Part shown: positions 11,974-41,931 of the stretch, piece by piece
Numbering within the stretch: position 1 is the first letter of the stretch
How the letters are laid out: the number at the start of each line of letters is the position of its first letter
Virus record (IMG/VR): IMGVR_UViG_3300044739_000022
Span: 1-45,274 of that record
DNA length: 45,274 bases
From: a virus
Strand: one strand, 5' to 3'
Program-made: the position numbers and the translations under genes
Notes under the pieces: generated by a model
Told to the model about the DNA's origin: nothing
The model's database searches: none
The model's input: the letters and a program-made list of their open reading frames with translations, nothing else

Positions 11974-12011
11974 TTGCACTTCCCCCCATTATAGGGGGTA
12001 AGATGGCGAGC
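11974..12011 (+). promoter_or_regulatory. Palindrome promoter P1 (C6-N5-G6 operator), leaderless
   Basis: -35 TTGCAC (11974-11979), palindrome 11982-11998 (CCCCCC ATTAT AGGGGG) and -10 TAAGAT (11999-12004). ATG 12012 follows seven bases later, so the message would be leaderless. On the minus strand the palindrome centre reads TATAAT, which could serve the divergent HNH gene. Confidence 0.7.
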
Positions 12012-12434
12012 ATGAACAGCACGGTAACCCCCGAAGAGGCGGAGGAGAGGAAGGTCCCGGAAGAGATCATGATCCGGACCGACCTGTACGAAGCCGCCAT
12101 GACACGCGCCCTCTACCAGGGCGAAACGTTGGCCAGTGTGACCCGCGCGTGTTACTTCGCGGCGGCCGCGCTGGCCAAGCCGATCGACGGCGGGAAGGCG
12201 CGAATCCGTCCCCGGCCGTACGGCGAAGACCGCGAGCGCATCCGCTTCCGCGTCCCGAAGGGCCAGCGAACGGCCACCCGGGACACCATCGAGTCCGCCG
12301 GGATCAGCGTTCCGGCGGCGGTGGAGCAGATGCTGGAGTACTACGTGGAGCACGGCTCGATCATTGGCTTCGCTGCGCTGGTGATCACGGAGCCCGAGAC
12401 CACGCCGAAGAGCACCACCGAGGAGAGCGAGTAA
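12012..12434 (+). CDS. Putative tandem ribbon-helix-helix DNA-binding protein
   Basis: The 140-residue protein starts at ATG 12012; an in-frame ATG at 12003 lies inside the -10 box and cannot be the start. Two units look like ribbon-helix-helix folds. The first runs about residues 18-50: strand EEIMIRTD, a helix, then GETLASVTRACYF. The second is about residues 75-112: strand RIRFRVPK, a helix, then GISVPAAVEQMLEYYV. Such tandem units bind palindromic operators through paired strands in the major groove. It sits just behind one of the palindromes, so autoregulation is plausible. ERF and SSB genes follow downstream. This is pattern recognition, not a confirmed family hit. Confidence 0.55.
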   Translation: MNSTVTPEEAEERKVPEEIMIRTDLYEAAMTRALYQGETLASVTRACYFAAAALAKPIDGGKARIRPRPYGEDRERIRFRVPKGQRTATRDTIESAGISVPAAVEQMLEYYVEHGSIIGFAALVITEPETTPKSTTEESE

Positions 12435-12436
12435 CG

Positions 12437-13327
12437 ATGACCGCGCCTGCCCAGGACGACCAGACCAGCGCGCCCGCCGCACCAGCGATCTACGCGGCGG
12501 TGGCCGCCGTCATGAAGCAAGTCACCTACGTGCCGAAGGCCGGTCAGTACGACGGCGGCCGGTCGGGAAGCTACGCCTTCCGCAAGTTCGAGGACACCGC
12601 CGCCGCGCTCGCGGTCGCGTTCCGCCAGCACGGCATCTTCGTGGGTTCCCGCGTCGTCGCCTCCAGCCACGAGATCGACAAGAAGCCGTTCAAGGACGGT
12701 GGCGGCTACCAGGCGTGGATGTCCGCCTTCGTGACCATGGAGTACACGTTCACCAGCCTGGTGGATGGCTCCTCGGTGACGGCCGGGTCGATCGGCGAGG
12801 GCAAGGACACCAGCGACAAGGCCAGCGCCAAGGCGATGACCATGGCGATGAAGTCCGCACTGACCCAGGCGTTCATGATCGCGACCGACGACCCGGACCC
12901 CGATGGTGAGCGCCCCGGCGACTACTCCCCGCCCGTCGGCGGCGGCGAGGGCTACGACCCGAACCAGGCCGCCCGTGACCGCCACGCCGCCCAGCGCCAG
13001 GCTGCGGGCGACGCCGGTGTCAACCCGCCCCAGGCCCAGGGCACGCGCGCGGAGAAGGTTGCCCAGTGGGTCGACTGGGTCCGGCGCGAGTTCACCAACG
13101 AAGCCATGACGCTGGAGCGCCTGGCCTTCATCCACATGTTGACCAGCCAGAAGCAGTTGCTGGGCGTTGACGCCGGTGGCGTGCCGCTGGAGACGCGGAT
13201 CAAGGCGGAGTTGGCGCGCTGGCAGCTCAACCCGAATGGCGCGATGCCCACCCCCGAGCAGGCCGCCGCGTACATGGCCCGCCAGCAGGAGGGCACCACG
13301 AACCACCCGAGCGAGGTTGAGAGCTGA
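12437..13327 (+). CDS. ERF-family single-strand annealing protein
   Basis: The 296-residue protein starts at ATG 12437, two bases after the previous stop. Residues 20-150 carry the ERF core: YAFRKFEDTAAALAVAFRQHG, then a MEYTFTSLVDGSSV strand pair, then GEGKDTSDKASAKAMTMAMKSAL and the ATDDPD end. The C-terminal half is a Pro/Gln-rich linker and a helical domain. ERF proteins form rings on single-stranded DNA and anneal homologous strands. The nearby SSB and a RusA-like resolvase (22.7 kb) could form a recombination set with it. Confidence 0.88.
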   Translation: MTAPAQDDQTSAPAAPAIYAAVAAVMKQVTYVPKAGQYDGGRSGSYAFRKFEDTAAALAVAFRQHGIFVGSRVVASSHEIDKKPFKDGGGYQAWMSAFVTMEYTFTSLVDGSSVTAGSIGEGKDTSDKASAKAMTMAMKSALTQAFMIATDDPDPDGERPGDYSPPVGGGEGYDPNQAARDRHAAQRQAAGDAGVNPPQAQGTRAEKVAQWVDWVRREFTNEAMTLERLAFIHMLTSQKQLLGVDAGGVPLETRIKAELARWQLNPNGAMPTPEQAAAYMARQQEGTTNHPSEVES

Positions 13328-14583
13328 TGGCCGGAGAGGTGAAGTCCGCCCAGATCACGATCTCCGAGACGTGGCCGGAGCACGTCCACTGCAAGACCGT
13401 GGGCAAGGCGCCGCGCTGGGTCGCCGCTACCGGCATCGTCTGCGCGTGCGGCGAGGTGCTCGGCTGGCCGGACCCTGAGCACCAGGAGACGCTGAGCCAG
13501 TACACGAAGCGCGTGGCCTCCGAACGGGTCGACACCGCGAGCGCGCCCGGCCGCGTGAAGGGTGCCTTCGGGGTGTACGGCGGCGAGCAGGTAGCCGACC
13601 CGGACCCGACGCCCGGACCCGACGATGGCCCTACCCCGGTCCACCCGGACGAAGAGCACGACGGCGACCCCGGCCCAGAAGAGCCGGAGGTGGACTGGGG
13701 CGAGCCGCCCGAGGATGAGCCGGACCCCGAGCCGCTGGCGATCGAGCCCGAAGAGGACGCGCCCAGCTTCGCGGGGAAGACGCTCACCGGCGTGGCCCCT
13801 GTAGACGCGGATGAAGCCCAGACGGCGCCGTGGGGTGCGAGCCCGCCGCCGGTCGAGCCGCCCTCATGGCAGGGCGTGGATGACCGGCCGGAGCACGCCG
13901 TGGGCGACCAGGTCACCGTGGCCGGGGTCGAGTTCGTGAAGCACTCCGAGAGCCCGTTCCCCGAGCACAACGCCCCGACGCTGGCCGATGCGGCGGGCCA
14001 GGTGGCCGACGACGGGCCGCCGTGGGACGCCTATGAGGATCATGACGGCGGTCCGAAACCCTCAAATGAGGGAATTCCGGAGGAGCCCTCCGTGGGTTCC
14101 GCCGTCGTGCCGTACCGGGGTACGCCGATCATGCCCGGCGCGGGCCAGGAGCTGGACCCGCTGTCCGGCCGGCTGGCTCCGCTGGACCCGACGTTGCCGT
14201 ACACCCCGCAGGACGTGGAACTGAAGATCGTGGAGATCCTGCGCCAGCTGGAGAACTCGGAGCTGTTCCTTCGGCAACAGCTCGCGCGGCTCCACCAGGC
14301 CACGCACAACCACGATTTCCGCTACAACCTGGCGCTGGCCAAGTCCGACCAGCGCGCGGCGGACCAGCGGAAGGCGGAAGCCTGGCTGGCCACCGAGAAG
14401 GAGCGCCACGAGATGACGGAGGCGGACATGCTGGTGCGCGCGCTGCGCGACTCCCAGCACAACCTCCGCTCTCAGCTCTCGGGCTTCCAGTCCGTCGCCC
14501 GCTCCCTCGCGGTGTCGATGGTCAACGCGCTGGACGGGCGCGAGCGGCCGCCGCTGCCGCCCGAGCCGCCGCGCTACAACTGA
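13327..14583 (+). CDS. Long acidic accessory protein with coiled-coil end
   Basis: The 418-residue product starts at ATG 13327 overlapping the ERF stop. Residues 15-45 hold a small Cys/His cluster (HVHC...CACG). Residues 80-270 are low-complexity, rich in Pro, Asp and Glu, likely disordered. Residues 300-395 form a long helical coiled coil, including a H-N-H-D-F-R-Y-N-L segment. It is placed between ERF and SSB, so a role in recombination or replication complexes is possible, but no known family is recognised. Confidence 0.6.
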   Translation: MAGEVKSAQITISETWPEHVHCKTVGKAPRWVAATGIVCACGEVLGWPDPEHQETLSQYTKRVASERVDTASAPGRVKGAFGVYGGEQVADPDPTPGPDDGPTPVHPDEEHDGDPGPEEPEVDWGEPPEDEPDPEPLAIEPEEDAPSFAGKTLTGVAPVDADEAQTAPWGASPPPVEPPSWQGVDDRPEHAVGDQVTVAGVEFVKHSESPFPEHNAPTLADAAGQVADDGPPWDAYEDHDGGPKPSNEGIPEEPSVGSAVVPYRGTPIMPGAGQELDPLSGRLAPLDPTLPYTPQDVELKIVEILRQLENSELFLRQQLARLHQATHNHDFRYNLALAKSDQRAADQRKAEAWLATEKERHEMTEADMLVRALRDSQHNLRSQLSGFQSVARSLAVSMVNALDGRERPPLPPEPPRYN

Positions 14584-14621
14584 TGACCTGCCCTTTCTAG
14601 ATCAACAACGGAGGAACAATC

Positions 14622-15188: not shown

Positions 15189-15348
15189 GCCGAAGCGGCG
15201 GCGGTGCGAACGCGTCGACCTGGGCAACGGGATGACGGCGATCGTCTGTAGCTGATCGACTCCCGGCGGTAGTGGCGCTGTTGCCGGTGAGCGCGAATCT
15301 CCTGTTCGCCAACCGTGTGCCAGCACGGAGGAGATGAACGCGAAGCAG

Positions 15349-15385
15349 TAGAGCCCCGGGGAGTGACGGCCCCCGGGGCTCTACT
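15349..15385 (+). terminator. Intrinsic terminator after ssb
   Basis: A perfect 13-bp stem (TAGAGCCCCGGGG at 15349-15361 with its complement at 15371-15383) ends the ssb transcript, directly before the next palindrome promoter. The 160 bases between the ssb stop and this stem have two weak hairpins (around 15239-15258 and 15292-15310) and no convincing gene. Confidence 0.85.
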
Positions 15386-15420
15386 TGTGTCCCCCCAAAA
15401 TGGGGGGTACGATCTCAACC
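15385..15420 (+). promoter_or_regulatory. Palindrome promoter P2, leaderless
   Basis: -35 TTGTGT (15385-15390), perfect palindrome CCCCCCAAAATGGGGGG exactly filling the 17-bp spacer (15391-15407), -10 TACGAT (15408-15413). The start codon at 15421 follows seven bases later. Confidence 0.8.
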
Positions 15421-15705
15421 ATGACCACCGCGCGCCACGACCCTCCCAGCATCACCGGCCGCCCTGCCGTTCACCTGATCTTCCGCGAAGTCTGGGCGGA
15501 CCAGGTCGACAACTACGGCGACGCCTGCCCCGTGTGCCAGCTCGAAGGCCGCACGATCGAGTGCAACGTCTACGTGCCCGTGATCTATGAGCGCGACGGC
15601 GTGATGCTCTCCGCCTGCCGTTGCTGCGCCCCCGCCGCCGTGCTCGACCACCACGCGCTGGACACCGACCACGATGCCGTCATCGAATACGCGAAGGAGA
15701 AGTAG
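15421..15705 (+). CDS. Small Cys-rich protein, leaderless
   Basis: The 94-residue product has no ribosome site; ATG 15421 sits seven bases after the -10 box. It carries a CPVC pair near residue 36 and CRCC near residue 67, which could bind a metal such as zinc. The short C-terminus is acidic. It is the first gene of an operon running to about 17.7 kb. Family not recognised. Confidence 0.65.
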   Translation: MTTARHDPPSITGRPAVHLIFREVWADQVDNYGDACPVCQLEGRTIECNVYVPVIYERDGVMLSACRCCAPAAVLDHHALDTDHDAVIEYAKEK

Positions 15706-15708
15706 ATC

Positions 15709-16410: not shown

Positions 16411-16413
16411 ATC

Positions 16414-17137: not shown

Positions 17138-17712
17138 GCCACTTCACCGACGCGCTGGCGTGCACGGAGCGCGCGCTGGCGCTCGCCCGGGATCTCGACA
17201 AGGTCCGAGACGCCGGGTCGCTCTCCCAGATCGCCTCCGGGCTCCGGCGCGAACTGGACTGCGCGATCCAGCGGCTCTCAGATGGCCTGGACGCGGCCGT
17301 CGGTGCCGCCACGGACGACTACGCCGGGAAGGTCCGAAACGACGCCATGGCGACCAGCCGGGCCGCCGCGCTGGCCGTCATGCGGCCGGGCTCGAAGCGC
17401 GCGGAGGTGCTACTGGCGCTTTACCGCTTCGGGGACCTGACCGACCTGGAGATCCAGGAGCGGCTCCAGATGGACCAGAACACCGAGCGGCCGCGCCGGG
17501 GCGAGCTGGTGGACGCCCAGCTGGCCACGACGGCCACCTTCTGGAACCAGGAGACGAACTTCCGCGAGTCGGCCACGCGCGCGCACAAGGGTCGGCAGTG
17601 GCAGATCTGGACGCTGACTTCGGCCGGCGTGGCGGCGGCGGAGAGGCTGACCGGAACGGAGGCCGCCTCCACTTCTCGGGCGGAAACCGTTGGGCCACAG
17701 CAGTTGTTCTGA
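17134..17712 (+). CDS. Winged-helix type protein
   Basis: This 192-residue product has a helical N-terminal half (residues 1-75) and a winged-helix-like half: KRAEVLLALYRFGDLTDLEIQERL (about 90-113), then M-D-Q-N-T-E-R-P-R-R-G-E-L-V-D as recognition helix with strand W-x-I-W-T-L-T-S-A-G as wing. This resembles small phage DNA-binding proteins that sense upstream sequence rules, but no effector site is seen. It closes the operon begun at 15.4 kb. It is a second, weaker candidate for the palindrome-binding factor. Confidence 0.6.
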   Translation: MSHFTDALACTERALALARDLDKVRDAGSLSQIASGLRRELDCAIQRLSDGLDAAVGAATDDYAGKVRNDAMATSRAAALAVMRPGSKRAEVLLALYRFGDLTDLEIQERLQMDQNTERPRRGELVDAQLATTATFWNQETNFRESATRAHKGRQWQIWTLTSAGVAAAERLTGTEAASTSRAETVGPQQLF

Positions 17713-17740
17713 TCCCTCACCACGGGGTTATGATCGGCGG
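17704..17740 (+). promoter_or_regulatory. Degenerate palindrome promoter P3
   Basis: TTGTTC (17704-17709), a weak palindrome (CCC 17714-17716, GGGG 17724-17727) and -10 TATGAT (17729-17734). The spacing is 18-19 bases. It lies at the end of the upstream gene and faces the leader and terminator at 17741-17858. Confidence 0.5.
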
Positions 17741-20426: not shown

Positions 20427-20482
20427 CACTCACCCCCCGAACTGGGGGGTGAGTCGCGTAGGCTGCCCTCGGAGGTAGCCAC
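20427..20482 (+). promoter_or_regulatory. Palindrome promoter P4 before the lysis genes
   Basis: Perfect palindrome CCCCCC GAACT GGGGGG at 20433-20449. The flanking boxes (CACTCA, TGAGTC) are poor as -35/-10. A TAGGCT box at 20459-20464 may be the real -10, in which case the palindrome covers the -35 region. ATG 20483 has its own GGAGGT site. Confidence 0.65.
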
Positions 20483-23733: not shown

Positions 23734-24996
23734 ATGCCCGCTTCGATCCCGTTCATCGCTTCCCTGGAGCTGAACAACTACCCGCCCCTGGACCTGAACA
23801 TCGAGCCCGTGGGCTCGCTGCCCACCGCGACCGCCGCCATGACCGGCCGACTGGTGTGGTTCTCGGGCACGCTCTGGGAGTGCACCGGCTCCGCCTGGAA
23901 GAAGCCCGACGCCAGCAACGCGGACACCGCGACGAACGCCACGAACGCCACCCACGCGACGACGGCCGACGACGCCACCCACGCGACGAACGCGGACCAC
24001 GCGACCGCCGCCGACAGCGCCACGACGGCCACGACCGCGACCACCGCCACCACGGCGACGACGGCGCTGGACTCGAACAAGCTGGGCGGACAGACCCTCG
24101 CCCAGGTCCGCGACTTCTCGCTGACCACCGGCGTCCGGCCGTCGTCGGCGATCTCGGGGTTCGCGACCGACGCGGCCGCCGCCGCCACTGCTGACCGGTT
24201 GGACCAGTTCGCCGCGCCCACCTCTGCGCTGAACATCAACTCCCAGCGGCTCACCGCCGTGGGCACCCCGACGACCGGCACCGACGGCGCGAACAAGACG
24301 TACGTGGACACCGCCGTGGCGAACGCGACGGCCGGCCTGGACGTGAAGAACGACGTGGCCGTGCTGGCGACCACGAACGTCACGAAGTCCGGCCTGACCA
24401 CGATCGACGGCTACACCCTGCTGGCTGGTGACCGGGTGCTCCAGGCGGTCGCCGGTGGGCACGTCCAGAACGGCGTGTGGTTGGCGGCGGCGGGGAGCTG
24501 GACGCGGGTCACCCCGCAGGAGGAGTTGCCGGGCGCGTTCTGGTTCGTCAAGAACGGCACCGCGAACGGCGCCACCCAGTGGATCACGACCAACGCCACC
24601 AACCCCGTCATCGGCACCGACCCGGTGGTGATCCGCCAGTTCGGCGCCCAGGTGACCTACACGGGCACGAACGGCGTCCAGGTGGTCGGTTCCACCATCT
24701 CCGCCGTTGCGACCGGTGGCGGCGGGATCAGCACCACGGGCGGGCTCGCCGTTGACAACACGGTCTCCCGCTCCGCTACCGTGAGCGTTCCGGCGCCCGG
24801 CTCGGGAACGGCCGTGACGATCACGTCACCGTTCGCGCCACCGGCCGGGCGTCGGCTCGCGGTCACCGTGTACCGCGTCTCCGACAACGCCCAGGTCTAC
24901 TGCTCGGTAGTGAACGCGGCCGGCTCCGCCAGCGTGACGCTGGACTTCGGCACCGCCCCGACCGCCGCGCAGTACTCGGCTGAGATCCGGAGCTGA
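23734..24996 (+). CDS. Tail fibre protein with Ala-Thr repeats
   Basis: The 420-residue protein has a short N-terminal part, then a low-complexity block (about residues 60-112) of Ala-Thr-Xaa units such as NATHATTADD. A Y-V-D-x-A-x-A-N-A-T-A-G-L-D-V-K motif near 192-205 is typical of trimeric fibre segments. The C-terminus is a beta-rich head domain. The ATG is two bases after the previous stop. It probably recognises host glycans. Confidence 0.7.
   Translation: MPASIPFIASLELNNYPPLDLNIEPVGSLPTATAAMTGRLVWFSGTLWECTGSAWKKPDASNADTATNATNATHATTADDATHATNADHATAADSATTATTATTATTATTALDSNKLGGQTLAQVRDFSLTTGVRPSSAISGFATDAAAAATADRLDQFAAPTSALNINSQRLTAVGTPTTGTDGANKTYVDTAVANATAGLDVKNDVAVLATTNVTKSGLTTIDGYTLLAGDRVLQAVAGGHVQNGVWLAAAGSWTRVTPQEELPGAFWFVKNGTANGATQWITTNATNPVIGTDPVVIRQFGAQVTYTGTNGVQVVGSTISAVATGGGGISTTGGLAVDNTVSRSATVSVPAPGSGTAVTITSPFAPPAGRRLAVTVYRVSDNAQVYCSVVNAAGSASVTLDFGTAPTAAQYSAEIRS
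23929..24069 (+). repeat. Ala-Thr-rich tandem repeat in the fibre gene
   Basis: Repeating GCN-ACN-GCN/AAC-type codons with near-identical triplets (gccacg, gacgcc) encode A-T-x units. Direct DNA repeats such as ACGAACGCC and CCACGGCGACGACG suggest slippage-prone length variation. Confidence 0.7.
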
Positions 24997-26128: not shown

Positions 26129-26175
26129 GTCTCCCGGTCTCGCGTTGTCTCACCCCCCGAATTAGGGGTTATGAT
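26129..26175 (+). promoter_or_regulatory. Palindrome promoter P5 before the packaging genes
   Basis: Palindrome CCCCCC GAATT AGGGGT at 26153-26169, -10 TATGAT at 26170-26175; -35 could be TTGTCT (26145-26150). Three GTCTC motifs (26129, 26137, 26147) precede the C-run. Confidence 0.7.
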
Positions 26176-29774: not shown

Positions 29775-29812
29775 TTGTCTGCCCCCCAAAATAGGGGGTA
29801 GCATCCGGTGCC
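29775..29812 (+). promoter_or_regulatory. Palindrome promoter P6, leaderless
   Basis: -35 TTGTCT (29775-29780), palindrome CCCCCC AAAAT AGGGGG (29782-29798), -10 TAGCAT (29799-29804). ATG 29813 follows eight bases later with no ribosome site. Confidence 0.75.
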
Positions 29813-30025
29813 ATGACCACCACGACACCGAGCAGCGACGTGGAAACAGCCGTCGCCGACATGAACGATCGGACACTGGCGATCACCGAAGCAGTGTCGT
29901 ACGCGCTCCACGCGGAGCCCGGCTCCACGAGTCGCGACAACTTCGCCGTGGACGCCCTGGCGAACCTCGAAGACCTGGAGAACGTCCTGCGCACCGTGCG
30001 CACCGCCGTGGAGGCACTGCCGTGA
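29813..30025 (+). CDS. Small acidic coiled-coil protein, leaderless
   Basis: The 70-residue product is acidic and helical in its second half (DALANLEDLENVLRTVRTAVEAL). It begins right after the P6 -10 box without a ribosome site. It starts a run of three similar small helical proteins (29813, 30022, 30186). Function unknown. Confidence 0.6.
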   Translation: MTTTTPSSDVETAVADMNDRTLAITEAVSYALHAEPGSTSRDNFAVDALANLEDLENVLRTVRTAVEALP

Positions 30026-30350: not shown

Positions 30351-31027
30351 TGGCCCGGGGGCACTTCCTCTCAGGACTGACGACGGGCCTGCTCTCCTCG
30401 CCCGTGACAGCCGTTCTCGCCCCCACTGGGGTGGATACGCCTGCTCGGGCTCTCGCGCTCTCAGCGGCCTTCTCAGCCCTGGTTGGCGTCGGCGCGCTCT
30501 GGCCGGACATCGACCACAAGCCTGCGCTCATCTCCAAGATCATCCCCGGGGTCAGCCAGCTGGTGTGCTGGGTCATGCGCCACCTCTCCATGGCCGTGTA
30601 CGAAGCGACCCGGACGAACAAGGACCGCGAGGGCGGGTGTCACCGGACCTTCACCCACACCCTGCCGTTCGTACTGATCACCGGTGGCGGAGTGGCCGCG
30701 CTGATGGCCTCCACCGGCCCGCTGGGCGTCACCAACCTGGGCCCCTGGGCCGCCTTCGTGGGCGTTGCGCTCGGGCTGGGCACGCTGGTGCACATCCTGG
30801 GCGACGCCATGACGCTGTCCGGCGTCCCCGTGCGCTGGCCGCTGCTCGACAAGAAGGGCCGCCGCTGGAGCACCTGGGGCTTCCGCTGGTTCCGCGCGGG
30901 CGGCCCCGTCGGCGAGCGCATCGCCACGCTGGTCTTCACCGGTCTCACGGCCGGTCTCACCCTGCTTGTCCTGATCGCGGGCGGGGCGCCCTGGTGGTCG
31001 CCCGTGTTCGCGCTGATCGGAGGTTGA
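30347..31027 (+). CDS. YdjM-type (DUF457) membrane metal-dependent hydrolase-like protein
   Basis: The 226-residue protein has five or so hydrophobic helices. Family residues are visible: H6 near the N-terminus (ARGHFLSGL), G-A-L-W-P-D-I-D-H (about 45-53), H-R-T-F-T-H-T (about 102-108) and H-I-L-G-D-A-M-T-L-S-G (about 149-159). These His/Asp positions could hold a metal in the membrane. The bacterial relative YdjM is inner-membrane and LexA-controlled, function not settled. In this phage it lies in an accessory operon and may modify the host envelope. It overlaps the upstream gene. Confidence 0.75.
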   Translation: MMARGHFLSGLTTGLLSSPVTAVLAPTGVDTPARALALSAAFSALVGVGALWPDIDHKPALISKIIPGVSQLVCWVMRHLSMAVYEATRTNKDREGGCHRTFTHTLPFVLITGGGVAALMASTGPLGVTNLGPWAAFVGVALGLGTLVHILGDAMTLSGVPVRWPLLDKKGRRWSTWGFRWFRAGGPVGERIATLVFTGLTAGLTLLVLIAGGAPWWSPVFALIGG

Positions 31028-32466: not shown

Positions 32467-32494
32467 TTGTGTCCCCCCAGGTGGGGGGTATGTC
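32467..32494 (+). promoter_or_regulatory. Palindrome promoter P7 without an evident gene
   Basis: -35 TTGTGT (32467-32472), CCCCCC AGGT GGGGGG (32473-32488, one base shorter than the rest), -10 TATGTC (32489-32494). The + strand downstream has only the end of the convergent tra gene, so it may control a short RNA or the site may serve another role. Confidence 0.65.
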
Positions 32495-32495
32495 C

Positions 32496-32564
32496 GTCTC
32501 AAGTCTCGCCGGTCTCACGTCTGCGCACGTTACGTGCGACGCGCAGCGGACGAGATCATGAGAC
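32496..32564. repeat. GTCTC direct repeats and nested palindrome beyond the tra gene
   Basis: GTCTC occurs at 32496, 32503 and 32512. GTCTCA (32512-32517) pairs with TGAGAC (32559-32564), CTGCGC (32521-32526) with GCGCAG (32541-32546), and CGCACGT with ACGTGCG around 32531. The block lies 21 bases beyond the 3' end of the tra-like gene. It has no coding potential I trust. Site-like: possible transfer locus, operator or origin. Confidence 0.45.
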
Positions 32565-32584
32565 GCGCGTACCCGTAACGCTCG

Positions 32585-34516
32585 CTACGCGTCCACGCGC
32601 TCGCCCGTGCTCACAGGCACGCGCGTGTCGCCCACGCGTGCGAAGCGCCCGCGCCCAAGCTTGCGGATCCGCTCTTCACCCAGGCTGGCCAGGCGCTTGT
32701 ACGTCTGCGCCCTGCTCAGGCCGGTGATCTCGGACAGCTCGGAGCGGGTGAGGATGCCGGTCGCACTGTCGTCCAGCGCCCGCAGGATGGCGTCCCGCTC
32801 GCGCGCCGGGACGACCTCGCCCGGGACGACGACCACGACACCGTTCGTGCCCATGAGCGCGTCCCAAGCCTCCTTCTCCGCCATCTTGAGCAGGCGGCCG
32901 GCCGCGACGGCGGCCAGGCGACGCTCCGGCTTCGGGACCCACCAGCCCTTGGACATGCGGGGCGTCTGGTGCTCGGGGTCGCGGAGCCGGAATTCGCCCT
33001 TGCCCAGGCCAACCGAGGTCCAGCCCACCCGGACTTCGTTGCCCCACAGGTTCTTGTTCTGCTGGTCGGACAGCAGCAGGCCCACCGTGGTGACCAGCTG
33101 GCCCTTGAACTCCGTCTTGCCCATGTCCTCTTTCGTCGGGTTCTGGGCGCCGATGATGATCCGGACGCCGCACTTACGGGCCTTCTTGGCGATCCGGCCC
33201 AGCAGGTTGTTCAGGTACTTTTCCCAGGTCAGCTGCGGTTCCTTCTCGCCCATGCCCCGCGCGGCGGCGATCAAATCGGGGAACTCGTCGATGATCAGGA
33301 ACAGCCAGGGCCGGCCGGGGCCAGGCTCGAACTCGTCAGCGTCGTCGTCGTCCATCGCGTCGGAACCCAGCTCGCGCTCCCTGGTCTCCACGAAACGCAT
33401 GACGGCTTCGAGGTGGAGAATCGCCTGGTCGAAGTCCTTCGCGATCGGCAGGGCGAACGCCTCACGCCAAGCGTTGAACGACGCGCCACCGGCCATGTCG
33501 ATCGCCACCATGATCGCATCGGTGGCGCCGGCCAGCCAGCGGATGATGTTGTGGAGGAAGCCCGACTTCCCGCCGCCGGACTGGCCGTAGACGCCCGCGT
33601 GGCTGATGTCCCACTCGATCTCGCGCCCGTCGGTGTAGATCCCGAGCGGGATCTTCTTGCCCATCGACCGCAGGGAGTACGTCCCGACCTCGGGCGCCGG
33701 GTGCTTGAGCATGCCTTCGAACGGGTTCTTCGGCATGAAGTCCAGCCAGGCTTCGTTGGACTTGTTCGGGTCTCGGTGCGGGAAGATCGAATCCGGCCGG
33801 GCCCTGTAGAAGCTGTGCAGGGCGTCCATAGACCGCTGGAGCACGGCGAAGGTGGCCGCCTCGGGGAGACGGACGTGGAGTTCCGCGACGTGGCCGCGAG
33901 ACCGCGAGGCCAGGACTTTGGTACCGGCGATCGCCTTCAGGTTGTCGGGGCAGCGGTCCCGGTCCGTGATCCGGTTCCACTTCCGGGCCACCTTCTCGGA
34001 CCGGCCGGCGGACCGGATGCGCCGGTGGTACCACCACATGCCGCCGAAGCCCAGTACCGCCGCCTCCCACAGGTACCCGGTGAAGTCGGACCCACCGAGC
34101 CCGGACCGGACCGTGACGTACACGCCGATGGCGGTACCGAGGGCCGCGAGGTAGATCCGCTCCGGCGGCCGGTCCAGCACGCCGTCCTTACCCCGGTCCA
34201 GGCCCGCCGGTACCACCCGGGTGACCAGGCGGGACCACCGCTCGTTCAGGACCGGTCCGAAGTAGGCCAGGGTCCCGGTACCGGCGGGGACCAGCAGGCC
34301 CAGCAGGGACCACCAACCGGGGTCGAACGCGGACCAGATCGCAGACAGCATCCAGACCAGCCCGCCGAAGACGACGGGCGTGAGGGCCCGCCGCCAGCGG
34401 AAGGCCAGGCGCTTGATGCCGCGAGCGCTCTTCCCGGTCGTCCAGATAAACAGCCTGGCCAGGAGGGTGCCCCACATGATGTCCCAGGCACCCCCTTGCT
34501 GCTTGTTCCTACTCAT
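32585..34516 (-). CDS. FtsK/SpoIIIE-type DNA translocase (Tra-like)
   Basis: The 643-residue protein starts at the ATG at 34516 with GGAGG upstream. Residues 40-70 and 110-160 hold hydrophobic membrane helices. Then a motor domain follows: Walker A GQSGGGKSG (about 311-319) and Walker B L-F-L-I-I-D-E-F (about 402-409), then I-I-I-G-A-Q-N-P. The C-terminus (580-640) is a winged helix-like domain, as in Streptomyces TraB/FtsK proteins, where it reads DNA sites. It is the third gene of a minus-strand operon with SpdB-like proteins. It probably pumps double-stranded DNA across the hyphal membrane. Virion packaging is less likely. Confidence 0.85.
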   Translation of the reverse strand: MSRNKQQGGAWDIMWGTLLARLFIWTTGKSARGIKRLAFRWRRALTPVVFGGLVWMLSAIWSAFDPGWWSLLGLLVPAGTGTLAYFGPVLNERWSRLVTRVVPAGLDRGKDGVLDRPPERIYLAALGTAIGVYVTVRSGLGGSDFTGYLWEAAVLGFGGMWWYHRRIRSAGRSEKVARKWNRITDRDRCPDNLKAIAGTKVLASRSRGHVAELHVRLPEAATFAVLQRSMDALHSFYRARPDSIFPHRDPNKSNEAWLDFMPKNPFEGMLKHPAPEVGTYSLRSMGKKIPLGIYTDGREIEWDISHAGVYGQSGGGKSGFLHNIIRWLAGATDAIMVAIDMAGGASFNAWREAFALPIAKDFDQAILHLEAVMRFVETRERELGSDAMDDDDADEFEPGPGRPWLFLIIDEFPDLIAAARGMGEKEPQLTWEKYLNNLLGRIAKKARKCGVRIIIGAQNPTKEDMGKTEFKGQLVTTVGLLLSDQQNKNLWGNEVRVGWTSVGLGKGEFRLRDPEHQTPRMSKGWWVPKPERRLAAVAAGRLLKMAEKEAWDALMGTNGVVVVVPGEVVPARERDAILRALDDSATGILTRSELSEITGLSRAQTYKRLASLGEERIRKLGRGRFARVGDTRVPVSTGERVDA

Positions 34517-35537
34517 CGGTAGCAACCTCCACGGTGCCGATCTCCTTGGCGAGAGTGAGGAGACGGAGCGCGCGCCCCGACCCCACGGCGTGCTCCGCCA
34601 TCACCTCGCGCTTCGAGGGCCAGCCGCCGTCCAGCGCCTGGTTCCGGATCCACTTCACGATCACGTCATCGCCCGCCCCCGGCTGGACGACCTTGCGCCG
34701 CGTCGCGGTGGGCTTCGCCTCGCGCGGCTTCTCGCGCTCACCGGCCGCCACGGCTCGAAGCTTCTCGGAGAAGTCAGCCCGGTTGTCCGCATGGGTGCCC
34801 TCGCCCAGGTGTGCAGGGTTACAGCAAGCCCGGTTGTCGCACCTCATGTGCCGGACCAGGAGGTCCGACCGGACCGTCTGGTTGTTCGCGATGGACCAGG
34901 CGACGCGATGGGCCCGGTACTGCTTGCCGCCGATGTAGAAGATCCCGTACCCGTCCCTGGTCCGGGACCCCTGGTACGGCCAGCACTCGTCAGCGGTACC
35001 AACGTCCACCCGGTTCCAGAACTGGTCCCGGTTCCGCTCGAACTCCACGAAAGGGTCCGTCGGTCCAATCGGCCGGACCAGGCGGTCCGGGACCGTGTAC
35101 GTCAGGACCGCATCCTGGACCACGCGGACCGCCGCGTCCGGACCGGACCGGACCGACGCGGTACCGGACGCGTGTCGGTGCAGTACCGCGAGCAGCGCGG
35201 CGAGCATCCCCGGCGGTACCGCACCCAGTACCGCAGGGAGCAAGTCCTTCGAGGAGATCCAGTGGTCCACCACGTTGCCGATCAGGGACCCGATGATGGC
35301 CGCCAGCGCGAGCGCGCGCGCCTGCTTCCAGGCGGGAGACCGGGTGACCCAGAGGTCCATACCGAAGGCGGCCACGGCGTCCAGGGTCAGCGGGAAGATC
35401 CAGGCCAGCTTGCCGAAGTGCGCGTACTCCGCGAGATGCCGGATCGAGTCGAACGAGATCACGGCGGTGGCCGTGATCGTGATGGCAGCGAAGATCCGCA
35501 GACGCGGACCGGGATCGAGCACGCTGGGCAGGCGCAT
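34509..35537 (-). CDS. DUF2637 (SpdB2-like) membrane protein with embedded HNH endonuclease
   Basis: The 342-residue protein has four hydrophobic helices in residues 14-120, in the style of DUF2637/SpdB2 spread proteins (SIRHLAEYAHFGKLAWIFPLTLDAVAAFGMDL). Residues 171-255 are an HNH nuclease of the HNH_3 type: C185-W-P, a Y-R-A-H-R-V-A-W strand, H230-x-x-C-x4-C-C-N-P-x-H-L, then G-T-H-A-D-N. Residues 288-333 resume a DUF2637-like C-terminal helix-turn-helix (WPSKREVMAEHAVGSGRA). No intein splice motifs are seen. The nuclease appears to be inserted in the linker. The stop overlaps the start of the Tra-like gene. Confidence 0.75.
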   Translation of the reverse strand: MRLPSVLDPGPRLRIFAAITITATAVISFDSIRHLAEYAHFGKLAWIFPLTLDAVAAFGMDLWVTRSPAWKQARALALAAIIGSLIGNVVDHWISSKDLLPAVLGAVPPGMLAALLAVLHRHASGTASVRSGPDAAVRVVQDAVLTYTVPDRLVRPIGPTDPFVEFERNRDQFWNRVDVGTADECWPYQGSRTRDGYGIFYIGGKQYRAHRVAWSIANNQTVRSDLLVRHMRCDNRACCNPAHLGEGTHADNRADFSEKLRAVAAGEREKPREAKPTATRRKVVQPGAGDDVIVKWIRNQALDGGWPSKREVMAEHAVGSGRALRLLTLAKEIGTVEVATDE

Positions 35538-35555
35538 GGTGGTGGTCCTCCTGAG

Positions 35556-35759
35556 CTAGTTCCGCGAGGTCCAGTGGACCCCGTGGTGGCGGCGGACCGG
35601 TCCGGCCTGCCAGCCGTGGTGCTTGGCGCTCCGGGCCGACAGCACGGACCAGAGCAGGACTCCCGCGAGCGGTCCGACCATCAGCCACCAGGTGCCGGTG
35701 TAGACACCAGCGGCGAAGGCGGCCAGGAGAGCCAGTCCGGTACCAGTGATCAGCCTCAT
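35556..35759 (-). CDS. Small membrane protein (SpdB1-like candidate)
   Basis: The 67-residue product starts at the ATG at 35759. It has two hydrophobic helices (residues 5-20 and 24-40) followed by a basic His/Arg-rich tail. It heads the minus-strand operon with the SpdB2-like and Tra-like genes. Small two-helix Spd proteins are usual in Streptomyces plasmid spread loci. Size and position only. Confidence 0.55.
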   Translation of the reverse strand: MRLITGTGLALLAAFAAGVYTGTWWLMVGPLAGVLLWSVLSARSAKHHGWQAGPVRRHHGVHWTSRN

Positions 35760-35800
35760 GTGTCCAGGGTAGTACCGGACCCCCATTTTGGGGGAGAGAC
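35757..35800 (-). promoter_or_regulatory. Palindrome site P8, minus strand, transfer operon
   Basis: CCCCC-N5-GGGGG at 35780-35794 (centre ATTTT on the + strand, AAAAT on the minus strand). It is upstream of the minus-strand operon. GAGAC elements (35796, 35809) flank it and would read GTCTC on the minus strand. The -10 is not obvious (TACTAC-like at best). Confidence 0.6.
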
Positions 35801-35850: not shown

Positions 35851-35886
35851 TTGACACCCCCCATTTTGGGGGGTTAGATTGGAGAA
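35851..35886 (+). promoter_or_regulatory. Palindrome promoter P9 (best match)
   Basis: Consensus -35 TTGACA (35851-35856), perfect CCCCCC ATTTT GGGGGG filling the 17-bp spacer (35857-35873), -10 TTAGAT (35874-35879). It points at the gene starting at 35926. P8 on the opposite strand is 62 bases away, so the two form a divergent control region. Confidence 0.85.
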
Positions 35887-37540: not shown

Positions 37541-37576
37541 TTGACACCCCCCAAAATGGGGGGCATGATGGTCCTA
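37541..37576 (+). promoter_or_regulatory. Palindrome promoter P10
   Basis: -35 TTGACA (37541-37546), CCCCCCAAAATGGGGGG (37547-37563), -10 CATGAT (37564-37569). Reads toward the DUF932 gene, which has its own GGAGGA site, so the message has a leader of about 29 bases. Confidence 0.85.
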
Positions 37577-37604
37577 TCACCAACCGAGCACCACGGAGGA
37601 CACC

Positions 37605-38642: not shown

Positions 38643-38644
38643 CC

Positions 38645-38690: not shown

Positions 38691-38722
38691 TCTCCCCCCA
38701 TATTGGGGGTAAGATCCAGGGT
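38687..38722 (+). promoter_or_regulatory. Palindrome promoter P11
   Basis: CCCCCC ATATT GGGGG (38694-38709), -10 TAAGAT (38710-38715); -35 region TTTCTC/TTCTCT is poor. Faces ATG 38750, which has GAGGAGG upstream. Confidence 0.72.
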
Positions 38723-38749
38723 GCCACCTACCACCGAGGAGGCTCGCCG

Positions 38750-39175: not shown

Positions 39176-39181
39176 GGAGCT

Positions 39182-39526
39182 ATGCCTGAGCCCGAAGAGT
39201 GGTACGCGGCGAACAACGACGAGCAACACATGGTCTCGCTGGCCGACCGGATCGAGCTGATGGCCGTGGTCGTGGGCGTCGGCGACACCATGGTGCTGAG
39301 CGACCCGGACGACGAAACGCCCGAGCGCCCCGCCGGGGTGGAAGAGCTGCCGCTGGTGGTGCTCGACCTGATCGGCCACCTCCACGTGGCGGATCAGTGC
39401 CTGCCCGCACGCACGCCCTTTCTCGTCACCTCCGTGGCGCTGGATGAGCTGCTCGCCGGGCTGCTCGAAGCCCGCGACGAACTGGACGCCCGGTACCCGC
39501 ACCGCGAGCGCGGAGCCAAGAAGTGA
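39182..39526 (+). CDS. Small acidic protein
   Basis: The 114-residue product starts at ATG 39182 (AGGAGC upstream). Two hydrophobic strands (ELMAVVVGVGDTMVL, ELPLVVLDLIGHLHVAD) suggest a compact alpha/beta fold. It overlaps the WhiB-like gene by four bases. Function unknown. Confidence 0.6.
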   Translation: MPEPEEWYAANNDEQHMVSLADRIELMAVVVGVGDTMVLSDPDDETPERPAGVEELPLVVLDLIGHLHVADQCLPARTPFLVTSVALDELLAGLLEARDELDARYPHRERGAKK

Positions 39527-39927
39527 TCCGGCCAAGATGGTCCGCGCGACCGGGCCACGGATCCGTCATGAACAGCGAGCAGACCGCGCGTGCTCTCCGG
39601 CACGTCATCGCCGACCTGCTGGCCGGACCGGACCTCGCAGGCGCCGCGTGCACCACCACCGACCCGGACGCCTGGTTCCCGGAGCAGGGCGACGGAGCGT
39701 CGTCGCGGGCGGCGAAGACGATTTGCAAGGGCGGGGTGTACCACGGTCGCCGCATCCCGCCGTGCCCGGTCCGCGCCGCGTGCCTGTCCCGGGCGCTGGA
39801 CGCCCCCGATGTGATCACCCACTGGGGCATGTGGGCGGGCTACACCGCGCCGAAGATCCGCCGGATGCGCAAGCTTCGCGCCGGGCTCCGCCGGGCCATC
39901 CCGCCCGCCAGCGATCAGGCCGCGTGA
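39523..39927 (+). CDS. WhiB-like iron-sulfur transcription factor with expanded Cys spacing
   Basis: The 134-residue product carries four Cys in WhiB order: C43 (AAC), C68 (TIC), C81 (PPCPV), C87 (RAAC), then G-M-W-A-G near 102-106, the equivalent of the G-V/I-W-G-G turn, and a basic end (KIRRMRKLR). Canonical WhiB has C-x2-C-x5-C. Here twelve residues lie between the second and third Cys. The start GTG 39523 overlaps the previous stop; ATG 39568 is possible. WhiB proteins are actinobacterial [4Fe-4S] regulators that bind the sigma factor. A phage copy could redirect host transcription. Confidence 0.8.
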   Translation: MIRPRWSARPGHGSVMNSEQTARALRHVIADLLAGPDLAGAACTTTDPDAWFPEQGDGASSRAAKTICKGGVYHGRRIPPCPVRAACLSRALDAPDVITHWGMWAGYTAPKIRRMRKLRAGLRRAIPPASDQAA

Positions 39928-40178
39928 TGGCCTGCCGGAAGACTGGCCGCTTCCCGTCGGAGGAGTCGGCCATGCGCCGGGTGCGGCGGATCTGGGACGA
40001 CCTGGCGGCCGGCCGGGCGACGATGCGCGATCACACCCCGCACGCCGCCGTCTGGTGCTACGCGCACAGCTGTTGGCACCTGACCAGCAACGCGATCAAG
40101 CCGAAGGGTCGCGGGAAGCGCGGCCGGCTGGCGAACGGCCTGCGGGCCAACGACCGGCGAGCGAGGAGCTACCGATGA
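39927..40178 (+). CDS. Small basic protein with Trp/His motif
   Basis: The 83-residue product (ATG 39927 overlapping stop) has a W-C-Y-A-H-S-C-W-H-L-T segment at 43-53 and a strongly basic C-terminus. It might bind metal or nucleic acid, but nothing is recognised. It overlaps the next start by four bases. Confidence 0.55.
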   Translation: MACRKTGRFPSEESAMRRVRRIWDDLAAGRATMRDHTPHAAVWCYAHSCWHLTSNAIKPKGRGKRGRLANGLRANDRRARSYR

Positions 40179-40357
40179 ACATGATCAAGAATTGGCTGAG
40201 CGACGCCCTGGATCGCGTCGCGTCGGCACCGGAGCGTCGACTGGAGCGCGCGCTGGCGTGCCCCGAGTGCTCTCACAGCACGGTGGAGGCGTCGCCGGAT
40301 TGCTACTGCACGGACCCGGGGTGCCTGTGCGTCGAACTCCACGAGAGCCAGCGGTGA
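40175..40357 (+). CDS. Small Cys-rich protein
   Basis: The 60-residue product (ATG 40175, GAGGAG upstream) has C-P-E-C at 29-32 and C-Y-C-T-D-P-G-C-L-C at 43-52, six Cys in total. A metal-binding mini-domain is likely. Function unknown. Confidence 0.6.
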   Translation: MNMIKNWLSDALDRVASAPERRLERALACPECSHSTVEASPDCYCTDPGCLCVELHESQR

Positions 40358-40704
40358 CCGGCCAGTGGCTGGCGCCGGTCGCCGGTGAGCACCGGTGCCG
40401 CACGCCCTTCATCCTGCCGTTCCGCGTTCGGACCGGTGACCGCTGGAAGTGCGCGGCGCGGCTCTACGAAGGCGAAGTATGCGGCCGGACCTGGCGCGTC
40501 ACGGTCGATCCGTACAGCCGCACGCGGGAGTGGACCTTGGAGAACCCGGACCAGCCGGAGGCGTGGAAGGTCTTCCGTCCGGTGAGCACCGAGCAGCTGA
40601 ACTACTGGCTGGAGCAGGAGCTGGGCGCGGCGTCCAAGACGAAGACGGCTACCGACGTGGTGGCCGCGATCCTGAAGCACTTCGAGGTAGGGAGCAGGCA
40701 GTGA
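40354..40704 (+). CDS. Small unknown Arg/Trp-rich protein
   Basis: The 116-residue product begins at GTG 40354 over the previous stop. The middle is basic and beta-like (FRVRTGDRWKCAARLYEGEVC); the C-terminus is helical (TKTATDVVAAILKHFEV). No domain recognised. Confidence 0.55.
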   Translation: MTGQWLAPVAGEHRCRTPFILPFRVRTGDRWKCAARLYEGEVCGRTWRVTVDPYSRTREWTLENPDQPEAWKVFRPVSTEQLNYWLEQELGAASKTKTATDVVAAILKHFEVGSRQ

Positions 40705-41354
40705 GCGAATCCCGGAAGAGGATCAAGGCCCCGATGCCGGACGGCTGGCAGGAGCTGGCCGCCGCCGTGCGCGAGGTGCGGGACCAGATCCGCGAGTCCT
40801 TCGGCCCGCGCGTCGAAGTCCGCGAGATCGGCGGCATGGTCCTCCGGGGCATGGCGGAAGACCTGGACCAGGTTCGCGAACTCAAGTTCGAGCCGACCGA
40901 CGCGGAGCGGTTCGGTGGACATGGGGAGCTGATCTGCCGCGAAGACCTGGAGGCGATGGAGCAGCCAGCGGCCCGCGTCGGCCGGCTGAAGCGCGAGGTC
41001 CGTGACCGCGTCCTGGAGCTGTGCGGCTGGGAGGACGGCGCGGAGACCACCGCCAGCGGAAGCCAGGACAACGACCTGGCCGCCGAACGCGCGGACGCCG
41101 TCATGGCCTTCCTGGGCCTCGCCCGGGGCCACTCCTTGCCGAACAAGCTGTTGCCGCGCGGCGAGCACCCGGGCGACTGGCTGACCCCGGGTACCGAGGT
41201 GACCGTGCTCGGGCGACACCCGGCCGTCGTGATGCCGCGCCGGGATATGGTCACCGTGAAGCTGGAGGGGAGCGACGTAGTCACCGAGTTCCCCCGCATG
41301 TCGATCACAAAGAGGGGTGAGGCGTGGACGCCGCCGAAGCGCACGGACGACTGA
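40701..41354 (+). CDS. Unknown protein with helical N-terminus and SH3-like end
   Basis: This 217-residue product (GTG 40701) has two long helices (residues 10-40, 85-115) and a final 60-residue beta region (TPGTEVTVLGRHPAVVMPRRDMVTVKLEG) reminiscent of a KOW/SH3-like fold. The stop overlaps the next frame. Function unknown. Confidence 0.55.
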   Translation: MSESRKRIKAPMPDGWQELAAAVREVRDQIRESFGPRVEVREIGGMVLRGMAEDLDQVRELKFEPTDAERFGGHGELICREDLEAMEQPAARVGRLKREVRDRVLELCGWEDGAETTASGSQDNDLAAERADAVMAFLGLARGHSLPNKLLPRGEHPGDWLTPGTEVTVLGRHPAVVMPRRDMVTVKLEGSDVVTEFPRMSITKRGEAWTPPKRTDD

Positions 41355-41713
41355 TGGCCGCCACCGGAGGACAGCCGTACACCCCGAAGCTGGAGGAGCC
41401 CACACCGGCCGAACCGAGCACGGCCCAGGCTGTCGTTCCGGGCCACGGCGGCATGGTCGAGCCCGAGCGCACCGAGACGACCGCCACCGTGCTGCCTGGC
41501 GGCCTGAACGGCGTCGCCCTCGCGATCGGGCAGGCCACCACCACGCTGGAGGAGTTCGCCGACGCGGCGCGGAAGCTGGTCGAGACGGCCGAAGAGGTCG
41601 TCGACCAGGACGGCCGGGAGATCTGGCTGACCGCCGGTGAGGTCGAGCTGGACCAGTGGACCCAGCGCCTGACCGACGCGGCCGCCGTCGTCCGGCGGCA
41701 ACTCGGGGGCTAA
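41324..41713 (+). CDS. Unknown acidic protein
   Basis: The 129-residue product may start at GTG 41324, preceded by AAGAGGGG, or at ATG 41354 (TGATG overlap). I prefer 41324 because of the ribosome site. The C-terminal half is helical (TTLEEFADAARKLVETAEEVV). It ends the operon directly before a palindrome site. Function unknown. Confidence 0.55.
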   Translation: MDAAEAHGRLMAATGGQPYTPKLEEPTPAEPSTAQAVVPGHGGMVEPERTETTATVLPGGLNGVALAIGQATTTLEEFADAARKLVETAEEVVDQDGREIWLTAGEVELDQWTQRLTDAAAVVRRQLGG

Positions 41714-41715
41714 TG

Positions 41716-41741
41716 TTGCCCCCCATCCTGGGGGTGTGGTA
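41716..41741 (+). promoter_or_regulatory. Palindrome promoter P12 for a structured RNA
   Basis: CCCCCC ATCCT GGGGG (41719-41734) with TGTGGT or TGGTAC as -10 (41735-41742) and TTGC overlapping the C-run. It lies six bases after the preceding stop and faces an untranslated hairpin-rich region. Confidence 0.6.
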
Positions 41742-41884
41742 CCTTCGGTTTTGCGAAGTGCTGGCGCCAAACCAGGCGCGGACACCGGTAGCGCACCGGC
41801 AGTCACGTACTGGGGCAACGCCTCCCCACGTCGCACCAGCAGCCGTCTGGCCGTCTCTCCGAGAATGGTCCAGGCGGCTTTCTG
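41742..41884 (+). ncRNA. Candidate structured non-coding RNA with its own terminator
   Basis: Between P12 and the next promoter lie five consecutive hairpins: 41743-41758 (CTTCG/CGAAG), 41764-41779 (GCGCC/GGCGC), 41785-41799 (CCGGT/ACCGG), 41811-41828 (TGGGG/CCCCA) and a final 10-bp stem 41841-41850 with 41870-41879. The last ends in TTCT and works as terminator. The only open frame here crosses the terminator and next promoter, so it is not credible as a gene. It does not match a tRNA or riboswitch I know. Confidence 0.55.
41841..41884 (+). terminator. Intrinsic terminator of the candidate RNA
   Basis: Stem AGCCGTCTGG with CCAGGCGGCT (one G-U pair), inner TCTC/GAGA hairpin, followed by TTCT. 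Confidence 0.65.
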
Positions 41885-41890
41885 GTGTGT

Positions 41891-41931
41891 ATGGGTTCCC
41901 CCAGAATGGGGGGTGAGATAGACTCGCGGGC
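41891..41931 (+). promoter_or_regulatory. Palindrome promoter P13, leaderless
   Basis: CCCCC AGAAT GGGGGG (41898-41913), then TAGACT (41919-41924) as -10. ATG 41932 starts seven bases later. -35 not clear. Confidence 0.65.

Follow-up and report, generated by a model that had tools for sequence, protein, structure and literature searches.

Phage phiC31 has one repressor protein and many conserved inverted repeats near its early promoters, and MerR-type operators are palindromes located between the -35 and -10 hexamers of promoters with 19-20-bp spacers. To our knowledge, no ribbon-helix-helix (RHH) protein controls dozens of promoters through their spacers. The closest precedent for the promoters treated here are the extended start-associated sequences (ESAS) of Cluster K phages such as TM4 and Adephagia. 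In the cited passages these are dispersed, intergenic SigA-like promoters with -35 and -10 hexamers 17-18 bp apart, overlapping an inverted repeat whose consensus differs between subclusters; a regulator is suspected there but unidentified (PMC11373665, PMC3203893). For L5 and other Cluster A phages, the corresponding passages report twenty to thirty intergenic sites per genome, with a lineage consensus paired with a diverging repressor. These sites are 13 bp long, asymmetric, oriented, mostly located outside promoters and bound by a monomer with two DNA-binding domains (PMC6550527, PMC9283540). The present analysis concerns a dispersed family of promoters with a C6-N5-G6 palindrome in the spacer, found in the 45,274-base IMG/VR virus record IMGVR_UViG_3300044739_000022 (approximately 69% G+C), the whole of which is referred to as the window.

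As in Cluster K, SigA-like promoters with 17-18-bp spacing overlap an inverted repeat here. ESAS repeats have imperfect arms of 15-17 bp, gaps of 4-14 bp and a 13-bp start-associated sequence (SAS) at the start codon (PMC3203893), whereas here the spacer is filled by 6-bp arms at 65 of 70 promoter-like matches, and a candidate regulator, the product of gene g13, is named. The SAS, GGGATAGGAGCCC, had no match with up to 2 mismatches in the window, to which this search was confined. With Cluster A, the system shares a dispersed arrangement and specificities that diverge between lineages; it differs in having palindromic sites, most of which lie in promoters, and a tandem RHH protein as candidate. 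An original prediction, made from the sequence of the window, had likened the sites to the repressor sites of phiC31 and L5. The look of repeated phage operators held; the L5 sites, however, are asymmetric and oriented in the cited passages (PMC9283540), whereas the symmetric C6-N5-G6 sites have core orientations of 18 to 14, i.e. about equal. The likeness to phiC31 is one of description, and its sequence side was limited to a search of g13 against 50,697 phage records, in which no relative was found in named phages (tblastn, E up to 0.01, three lineages queried). No description of the phiC31 inverted repeats or of dispersed operators combined with Streptomyces was found in the open-access literature, which proves little. 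The MerR arrangement does not apply: most spacers have 17 bp, though those of the g13 and g33 promoters have 19, and no MerR_1 protein was present in 13 records. The system is a variant distinct from ESAS and from Cluster A stoperators and a member of neither. We consider it reasonably probable that these are SigA-type phage promoters whose 17-19-bp spacer would serve as operator, with g13 as an autoregulated global repressor.

Palindrome-filled promoter spacers

All twelve palindromes listed in the original prediction were present in the window. Those at 15391, 20433, 35857 and 37547 are perfect C6-N5-G6, those at 11982, 29782, 32473, 38694, 41719 and 41898 (better registered at 41897) have one mismatch, the site at 26153 has two, and 35780 is C5-N5-G5. 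The excess over chance was confined to sites with 0-1 mismatch, because counts at up to two were near the shuffle mean: 4, 10 and 15 sites were found at 0, up to 1 and up to 2 mismatches, compared to means of 0.02, 0.9 and 12.3 (maxima 1, 4 and 25) in 60 dinucleotide shuffles of the window. At up to 3 mismatches there was no excess (108 observed, 142.7 expected). By pattern alone, the two degenerate relatives that had been proposed do not stand out from chance, but 2629 has a flank-similar look-alike in G012 and 17714 lies within TTGTTC-N19-TATGAT.

Eight TTGnnn-N17-19-TAnnnT matches were found in the window. Seven of them, including the degenerate 17714, lie at listed palindromes, and the eighth is at 24752. 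The proposed filling of the -35/-10 gap was supported for many sites. It did not extend to 20433, which has no fitting promoter, to 35780, 41719 and 41897, where the palindrome is located about 5 nt upstream of a -10-like hexamer, or to the odd geometry at 32473.

Relatives were collected by scanning viral contigs with C6N5G6TAnnAT (66 stretches) and TTGnnnC5N7G5TAnnAT (62 stretches), together 93 viral loci. Many matches were on high-GC contigs with several sites; others were on contigs that were AT-rich or of middling GC and resembled chance or other elements. From 41 of the 93 loci, 40 records were obtained, and 20 of these (18.6 to 61.4 kb), picked mostly for several sites or for length, were read whole. 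They constitute group I plus G008, were selected for carrying the motif, and together with the window form the set of 21 records. g13 and several virion families were each present in 15 of the 21, and the putative capsid protein ranged down to 49% identity to the reference. For sampling independent of the motif, 57 loci were collected by portal homology and 23 by a capsid search. Seventeen further records were taken from these (16 by portal and one by capsid homology), of which 13 were read whole and G051, G052, G055 and G056 were left out; C5-N7-G5 was present in 5 of the 17 and absent from 12. No near-identical named phage was found for window positions 20000-44900, and the best-ranked named portal relatives showed approximately 30% identity over 50-56% of the protein. 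Named phages and plasmids gave only weak partial matches to the motif (E of 3 or more).

In the 21 records, C6-N5-G6 occurred in 92 copies, other gaps in 0-5 copies; the reversed control gave none at gap 5 and at most 3 at other gaps. The original prediction that the sites are intergenic or at gene edges was borne out by 182 of 185 sites, measured against our own gene calls, though gene interiors over 60 bp away from the gene ends account for 72% of bases. Six gene families had a site directly upstream in 85-100% of their members, and 56 of 73 tested families never had one. With the query TTGn3-N17-TAn3T, which does not contain the palindrome, the palindrome was found in the spacers of 65 of the 70 distinct matches in 23 records, and in 35 of 36 where an ATG followed 5-9 nt behind the -10 hexamer. 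At spacings of 18 and 19 bp it was present anywhere in the spacer in 10 of 11 matches each. Promoter-like matches at other spacings were scarce (nine in all for gaps 10-16, eight for gaps 20-25). A dispersed family of promoters with a palindromic spacer at the starts of transcription units, resembling repeated phage operators, is thus supported.

An ATG was located 6 or 7 nt after the -10 hexamer in 34 of the 65 palindrome promoters, i.e. at the expected transcription start, so that many of the mRNAs are probably leaderless. A logo was prepared from 77 sites with arms preselected at up to 2 mismatches. The -35 hexamer was TTGACA in 23 and TTGTGT in 22 of these, with variants in the remainder. 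TTGACA sites lacked a start codon 5-8 nt behind the -10 hexamer in 16 of 23 cases, compared to 18 of 50 in the class of TTG[TC]nT and others. The core was variable and used in both orientations (ATTTT in 18, AAAAT in 14 of the 77), and its first and last bases formed an A...T pair in 47. In a second geometry, the palindrome was positioned about 5 nt further upstream of TAnnnT (nine site-orientations at offset 5, six of them with a start codon); 41897 of the window is of this kind. Such a shift relative to the -10 hexamer is expected of an operator rather than of a promoter element. The leaderless starts, the candidate regulator behind 11982 and the geometries at 20433, 32473, 35780, 41719 and 41897 go beyond the original prediction.

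Arm types in related lineages

In the closer relatives found through the portal protein, promoters keep a spacer that is C-rich on the left and G-rich on the right, and the arms differ. Arms like TTGTGCCCCGC...GCGGGGTACATT are found in group II (G041, G042, G049 and G050; C-left/G-right in 21 of 23 promoter-like matches) and arms like TTGACACCC...GGGTGTAGCGT in group IV (G043, G044 and G047; 37 of 52). G046 has TTGACCCCC...GGGGGTGTA (14 of 17), G045 has TTGACACCCCCAC...GTGGGCTACAGT (14 of 16), and two of three spacers in G048 are of the C-left/G-right type. No such spacer was found among five matches in the less related G053 and G054 or among ten matches in 21 loci of other high-GC relatives, with pieces of G053 and G054 accounting for two of these loci. 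Pooled over 32 records, 199 of 231 promoter-like matches had a C-left/G-right spacer; these matches are not independent, because related records share sites.

Mean inverted-repeat arms were compared with those of shuffled spacers. The values were 6.64 versus 3.36 for group I, 5.22 versus 3.70 for group II, 5.00 versus 3.28 for G045 and 5.59 versus 3.66 for G046. Group IV (4.27 versus 3.38) and G008 (4.25 versus 3.24) also exceeded their shuffled spacers but not five control matches (4.40 versus 3.24), so that exact symmetry is uncertain for these two; this result does not bear on the window's own group. That C-left/G-right is kept even where symmetry is poor would suit a spacer that acts without any binder, as a DNA-structure element tuning promoter strength. 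This explanation is very improbable, given that arms exceed those of shuffled spacers in group I and also in group II, G045 and G046, that the same palindrome occurs 5 nt upstream of a -10 hexamer and, at 20433, without a promoter, and that the core ends pair in 47 of 77 sites. Formation of an RNA hairpin or terminator was rejected as a general explanation, because the spacer palindrome is upstream of the start site and therefore outside its own transcript; it was kept for 20433 only.

The candidate regulator g13 and its possible mode of action

g13 starts directly behind the 11982 site. A site was located directly upstream of the g13 homologue in 14 of 15 records according to called starts; in the remaining one, G004, the site lies inside an over-called start. 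The AlphaFold2 model consists of two successive strand-helix-helix units (E14-22, H23-35, H40-54 and E74-82, H83-95, H100-114), the two strands of which are predicted to pair into one ribbon, as in RHH proteins. The predicted local distance difference test (pLDDT) score was 90 or more in 77 of 140 residues. The best structural match was chain 9f0z_G of the F-plasmid relaxosome (Z 9.3, root-mean-square deviation 3.0 over 97 residues), which we infer to be TraY, and the second was the viral regulator AvtR (Z 7.0). In the cited passage, TraY is described as a monomer that contains the complete fold of an RHH dimer (PMC12117103). The archaeal viral proteins AvtR and SvtR regulate transcription, and SvtR acts as a repressor at its own promoter; the cited review section is inconsistent between text and figure legend as to which of the two has fused motifs (PMC5569661). 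In g13, both dimer halves are predicted to be in one chain, as in TraY and, by alignment, in AvtR chain 4hv0_A. Identity to TraY-like chains and AvtR was 4-15%, and no sequence match to a solved RHH protein was obtained.

In an alignment of 14 g13 members, E18 and F79 are invariant and R76, I77 and R78 nearly so; along the second ribbon, the two arginines take alternate positions with I77 and F79. R78 hardly varies in any of the groups, while R76 is kept in groups I and II and replaced in G043-G047; both are lysine in G008. In this small sample, the pattern agrees with a shared G core and differing flanks. Homologues were detected by profile in G041, G042, G049, G045 and G046, and weakly in G047 (hmmsearch E 0.004), to whose protein those of G043 and G044 are 72 and 60% identical. 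All eight other-group records with ERF and SSB have an RHH gene behind such a promoter; the arrangement is leaderless in G041, G042 and G049, and a leader is present in G045, G046, G047, G043 and G044. G048 and G050, short records of 16.6 and 30.8 kb, have neither a g13 homologue nor ERF or SSB hits.

In group IV (G043, G044 and G047), the tandem RHH homologue is fused to an extra helix-turn-helix (HTH) domain that resembles sigma region 4 (loci L274:11206-11805, L268:5566-6165 and L278:15460-16056). The G047 protein matched Sigma70_r4_2 with E 5.4e-5, under the curated cut-off (23.2 of 25.7 bits), and its model comprises a three-helix domain and two RHH units, with sigma region 4 (1ku3) at Z 6.5 over residues 13-66. 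The proteins of G043 and G044 align over this domain, and group IV promoters have consensus TTGACA. A g13-type regulator bound to the same operators might therefore act as an activator, alone or in addition to repression, through recruitment or remodelling of RNA polymerase at the spacer, a possibility that is clearest in group IV. We regard this as unlikely: group I spacers are mostly 17 bp long with good -35 and -10 hexamers and so need no help, the extra domain is about as similar to LuxR-type and response-regulator HTH domains, and the aligned group I and II proteins do not have it.

Other candidate binders were surveyed in ten other-group records by profile search at E up to 0.01, at which diverged copies may be missed. 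Among the regulator-type DNA-binding candidates tested, g13 alone recurred across lineages. WhiB, g20-g22 and the replication initiator were found in 0-3 of the ten records, and WhiB g52, g20/21 and g22 (2, 0 and 2 records) were rejected as binders. The same operators could alternatively be bound by another phage protein, i.e. the small Cys protein g17 or the 100-aa cl43, or by a host repressor. A site is upstream of cl43 in 10 of 10 and of g17 in 12 of 13 family members, and g17 homologues occur in 7 of the ten other-group records; cl43, however, occurs in 5 of them and in none of G043-G047, and matched no Pfam family. As to a host protein, TTGn3-C5-N7-G5-TAnnAT gave 16 hits in 84,980 bacterial and archaeal genomes (257 billion bases), none with an actinobacterial title (titles only; the search covered the arms of group I and not those of other groups), and arms that change between phage lineages are not easily explained by a host repressor. 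A binder other than g13 is thus quite improbable.

A lambda-like repressor had no support, because integrase (PF00589), resolvase (PF00239) and over-threshold HTH_3 proteins were absent from 13 records (two weak HTH_3 matches). The resemblance to CsoR-family operators mentioned in the original prediction was not upheld: no Trns_repr_metal (PF02583) protein exceeded the cut-off in 29 records, a scan of phage and not host proteins, with 13.2 bits each in G041 and G050 as sub-threshold matches, and the operator sequence changes between phage lineages. A family scan was performed with 92 distinct of 133 listed proteins of relatives that have no homologue in the window, omitting proteins below 75 aa, all of G008 and some others. 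It gave portal, protease, exonuclease and superinfection exclusion, and no repressor family among the matches listed (25 of 49 PHROG rows).

It is likely that g13 binds these promoters. The spacer itself, CCCCCCAnnnTGGGGGG, would be the operator, and each C-run/G-run arm would be gripped by one pseudo-dimeric beta-ribbon of g13. Two g13 molecules per palindrome could thus occupy one face of the spacer, with arm centres 11 bp apart, and R76 and R78, alternating with core residues, may read the guanines. For RelB, the cited passages document RHH dimers bound to a single face, the regions that they protect being 9-10 bp apart (PMC2812701). Blocking of RNA polymerase by a bound protein, as already proposed in the original prediction, is the most plausible effect: g13 would keep the polymerase off the -35/-10 pair. 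Repression is suggested by the position of the site, which spans the spacer and touches both hexamers, by spacings that mostly require no remodelling, and by the presence of such a site at the gene of the regulator itself. g13 would repress its own gene and most other promoters together, as an autoregulated global switch that serves early shut-off or maintains quiescence. Pairs of g13 and operator would have diverged into several specificity groups.

Several points weigh against this interpretation. Group I and G008, 20 records in all, were selected via the motif. The arms of group IV and G008 are no longer than those of the five control matches, and group IV is the weakest group. At the sequence level, the homology between the group IV protein and g13 is weak (E 0.004; hhalign probability 37%, E 3.5e-4), and its assignment draws additionally on predicted structure and position. 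Foldseek gave no match for g13 at E up to 0.001 (best 0.074), and a Z near 7 is ordinary for such models by the structure-comparison tool's own note. The distribution of g13 is matched in breadth by portal, g12 (HNH), ERF, SSB, capsid and g17, so its co-occurrence with the sites may be due to shared descent; these other proteins are not known as regulators (for g17, a lack of information). A self-repressed gene heading a recombination/SSB operon appears unlike a classical lysogeny repressor, and the sigma-region-4-like HTH of the group IV protein could mean activation.

The global repressor could serve either early shut-off in a lytic phage or quiescence of an extrachromosomal one; quiescence would be compatible with the lack of integrase hits, a superinfection-exclusion lipoprotein in G009 and the FtsK/DUF2637 pair. 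A wider interpretation is a family-wide promoter code, in which one tandem RHH protein would read the spacers of nearly every SigA-type promoter of its own phage, protein and spacer having co-diverged into at least four specificity groups with mutually orthogonal promoter/regulator sets. The groups would be C6/G6, CCCCG/CGGGG, ACACCC/GGGTGT-like and CCCAC/GTGGG. In the ACACCC/GGGTGT-like group, the regulator would have gained the sigma-region-4-like domain, and symmetry is least certain. We consider the chances of this code holding to be evenly balanced.

Individual sites and significance

By gene calls and family scans, the window contains a tailed-phage gene set with ERF recombinase g14, replication initiator g24, DnaB-like helicase g25 and terminase g35, and further FtsK-like g45, DUF2637/HNH g46 and WhiB g52. 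SSB g16 and methyltransferase g48 were assigned by reading the sequence, and the DUF932 label of g49 was taken from the original prediction. WhiB, DUF2637/FtsK and the relatives of the helicase suggest an actinobacterial host. The window is probably a fragment of a larger genome, since G007 and G009, which were mapped in full, have a matching gene order and approximately 61 kb each; portal-region families were not present in the window in the 21-record family comparison. Rfam and tRNA scans of the window gave nothing.

Table 1. Palindrome sites of the window and the candidate regulator gene
Position	Strand	Feature	Details
2629..2645	+	Degenerate relative	Similar site in G012
11974..12004	+	g13 promoter-operator	TTGCAC, 19 bp with CCCCCCATTATAGGGGG (11982-11998), TAAGAT; ATG 7 nt downstream
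12012..12434	+	g13, predicted tandem RHH protein	140 aa; leaderless start reassigned from 12003 to 12012
15385..15413	+	Canonical spacer site	TTGTGT-CCCCCCAAAATGGGGGG-TACGAT; leaderless g17 ATG at 15421
17704..17734	+	Degenerate relative	TTGTTC-N19-TATGAT
20428..20454	.	Extended inverted repeat, helicase g25/g26 gap	ACTCACCCCCC-GAACT-GGGGGGTGAGT (11-bp arms); no fitting promoter
26145..26175	+	Degenerate spacer site	TTGTCT-N19 (CCCCCCGAATTAGGGGT at 26153)-TATGAT; upstream of g33 and terminase genes
29775..29804	+	Spacer site	TTGTCT-N18 (CCCCCCAAAATAGGGGG at 29782)-TAGCAT; g37 ATG 8 nt on, at 29813
32467..32494	+	Odd member between convergent g44 and g45	TTGTGT-CCCCCCAGGTGGGGGG (4-bp core, 16-bp spacer)-TATGTC
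35779..35795	-	Shifted site	C5-N5-G5, 5 nt, -10-like TACTAC; precedes small gene 35556-35759, then DUF2637/FtsK genes g46, g45
35851..35880	+	Spacer site	TTGACA-CCCCCCATTTTGGGGGG(T)-TAGATT; upstream of g47
37541..37569	+	Spacer site	TTGACA-CCCCCCAAAATGGGGGG-CATGAT; upstream of g49; leader and ribosome-binding-like sequence
38694..38715	+	Site with poor -35	CCCCCCATATTGGGGG then directly TAAGAT; upstream of g50
41719..41745	+	Shifted site	CCCCCCATCCTGGGGG, 5 nt, TACCTT; before approximately 180 nt without called gene
41897..41924	+	Shifted site	TCCCCCAGAATGGGGGG, 5 nt, TAGACT, 7 nt, ATG at 41932; like arrangement in G005, G021 and G025

A terminator-like hairpin upstream of g17 runs straight into the -35 hexamer. 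The repeat at 20428-20454 is located between the helicase and a papain-like lysis-region gene, with a copy in G009 (L127) around position 30752 of the record. In five records the outer stem of this repeat reads ACTCA/TGAGT, whereas G002, G009, G015 and G022 have a GTGCTCT/AGAGCAC-like stem, with the C/G arms kept; this compensatory change points to an RNA hairpin, a terminator or a stoperator-like element. Look-alikes of the element at 32467-32590 were found in G005, G006, G017 and G021, in some followed by a TCTCAAGTCTC-like tract, and a small RNA is possible there. At 32585-35759, the minus strand encodes FtsK-like and DUF2637/HNH genes, which we take to be reminiscent of Streptomyces plasmid transfer genes; the operator sites 35779 and 35857 form a divergent pair there. 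The interval 41735-41931, about 180 nt between two operator sites, contains no called gene and gave no match in the Rfam scan.

In group I, cl43 (e.g. L129:2061-2363) is a 100-aa protein with an acidic tail; in each of the 10 records that have it, one site lies immediately upstream and a second one within 700 bp. G009 encodes a Lipoprotein_Ltp superinfection-exclusion homologue (L126:13076-13687, E 2.9e-25). One relative's protein contains an Acb2/Tad1 hairpin domain (E 5e-9), by its name presumably an anti-CBASS-type protein.

Few actinobacterial phages have well-defined promoters and regulators, and even for Cluster K, which is well studied, the cited passage names no regulator of the ESAS promoters (PMC11373665). 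Here, sequence alone yielded promoters, likely start points, an operator and a leading candidate protein. If the proposed regulation is true, these phages would provide a natural series for how operator and beta-ribbon regulator jointly shift in specificity at many promoters, and possibly a set of orthogonal repressible promoters for high-GC hosts.

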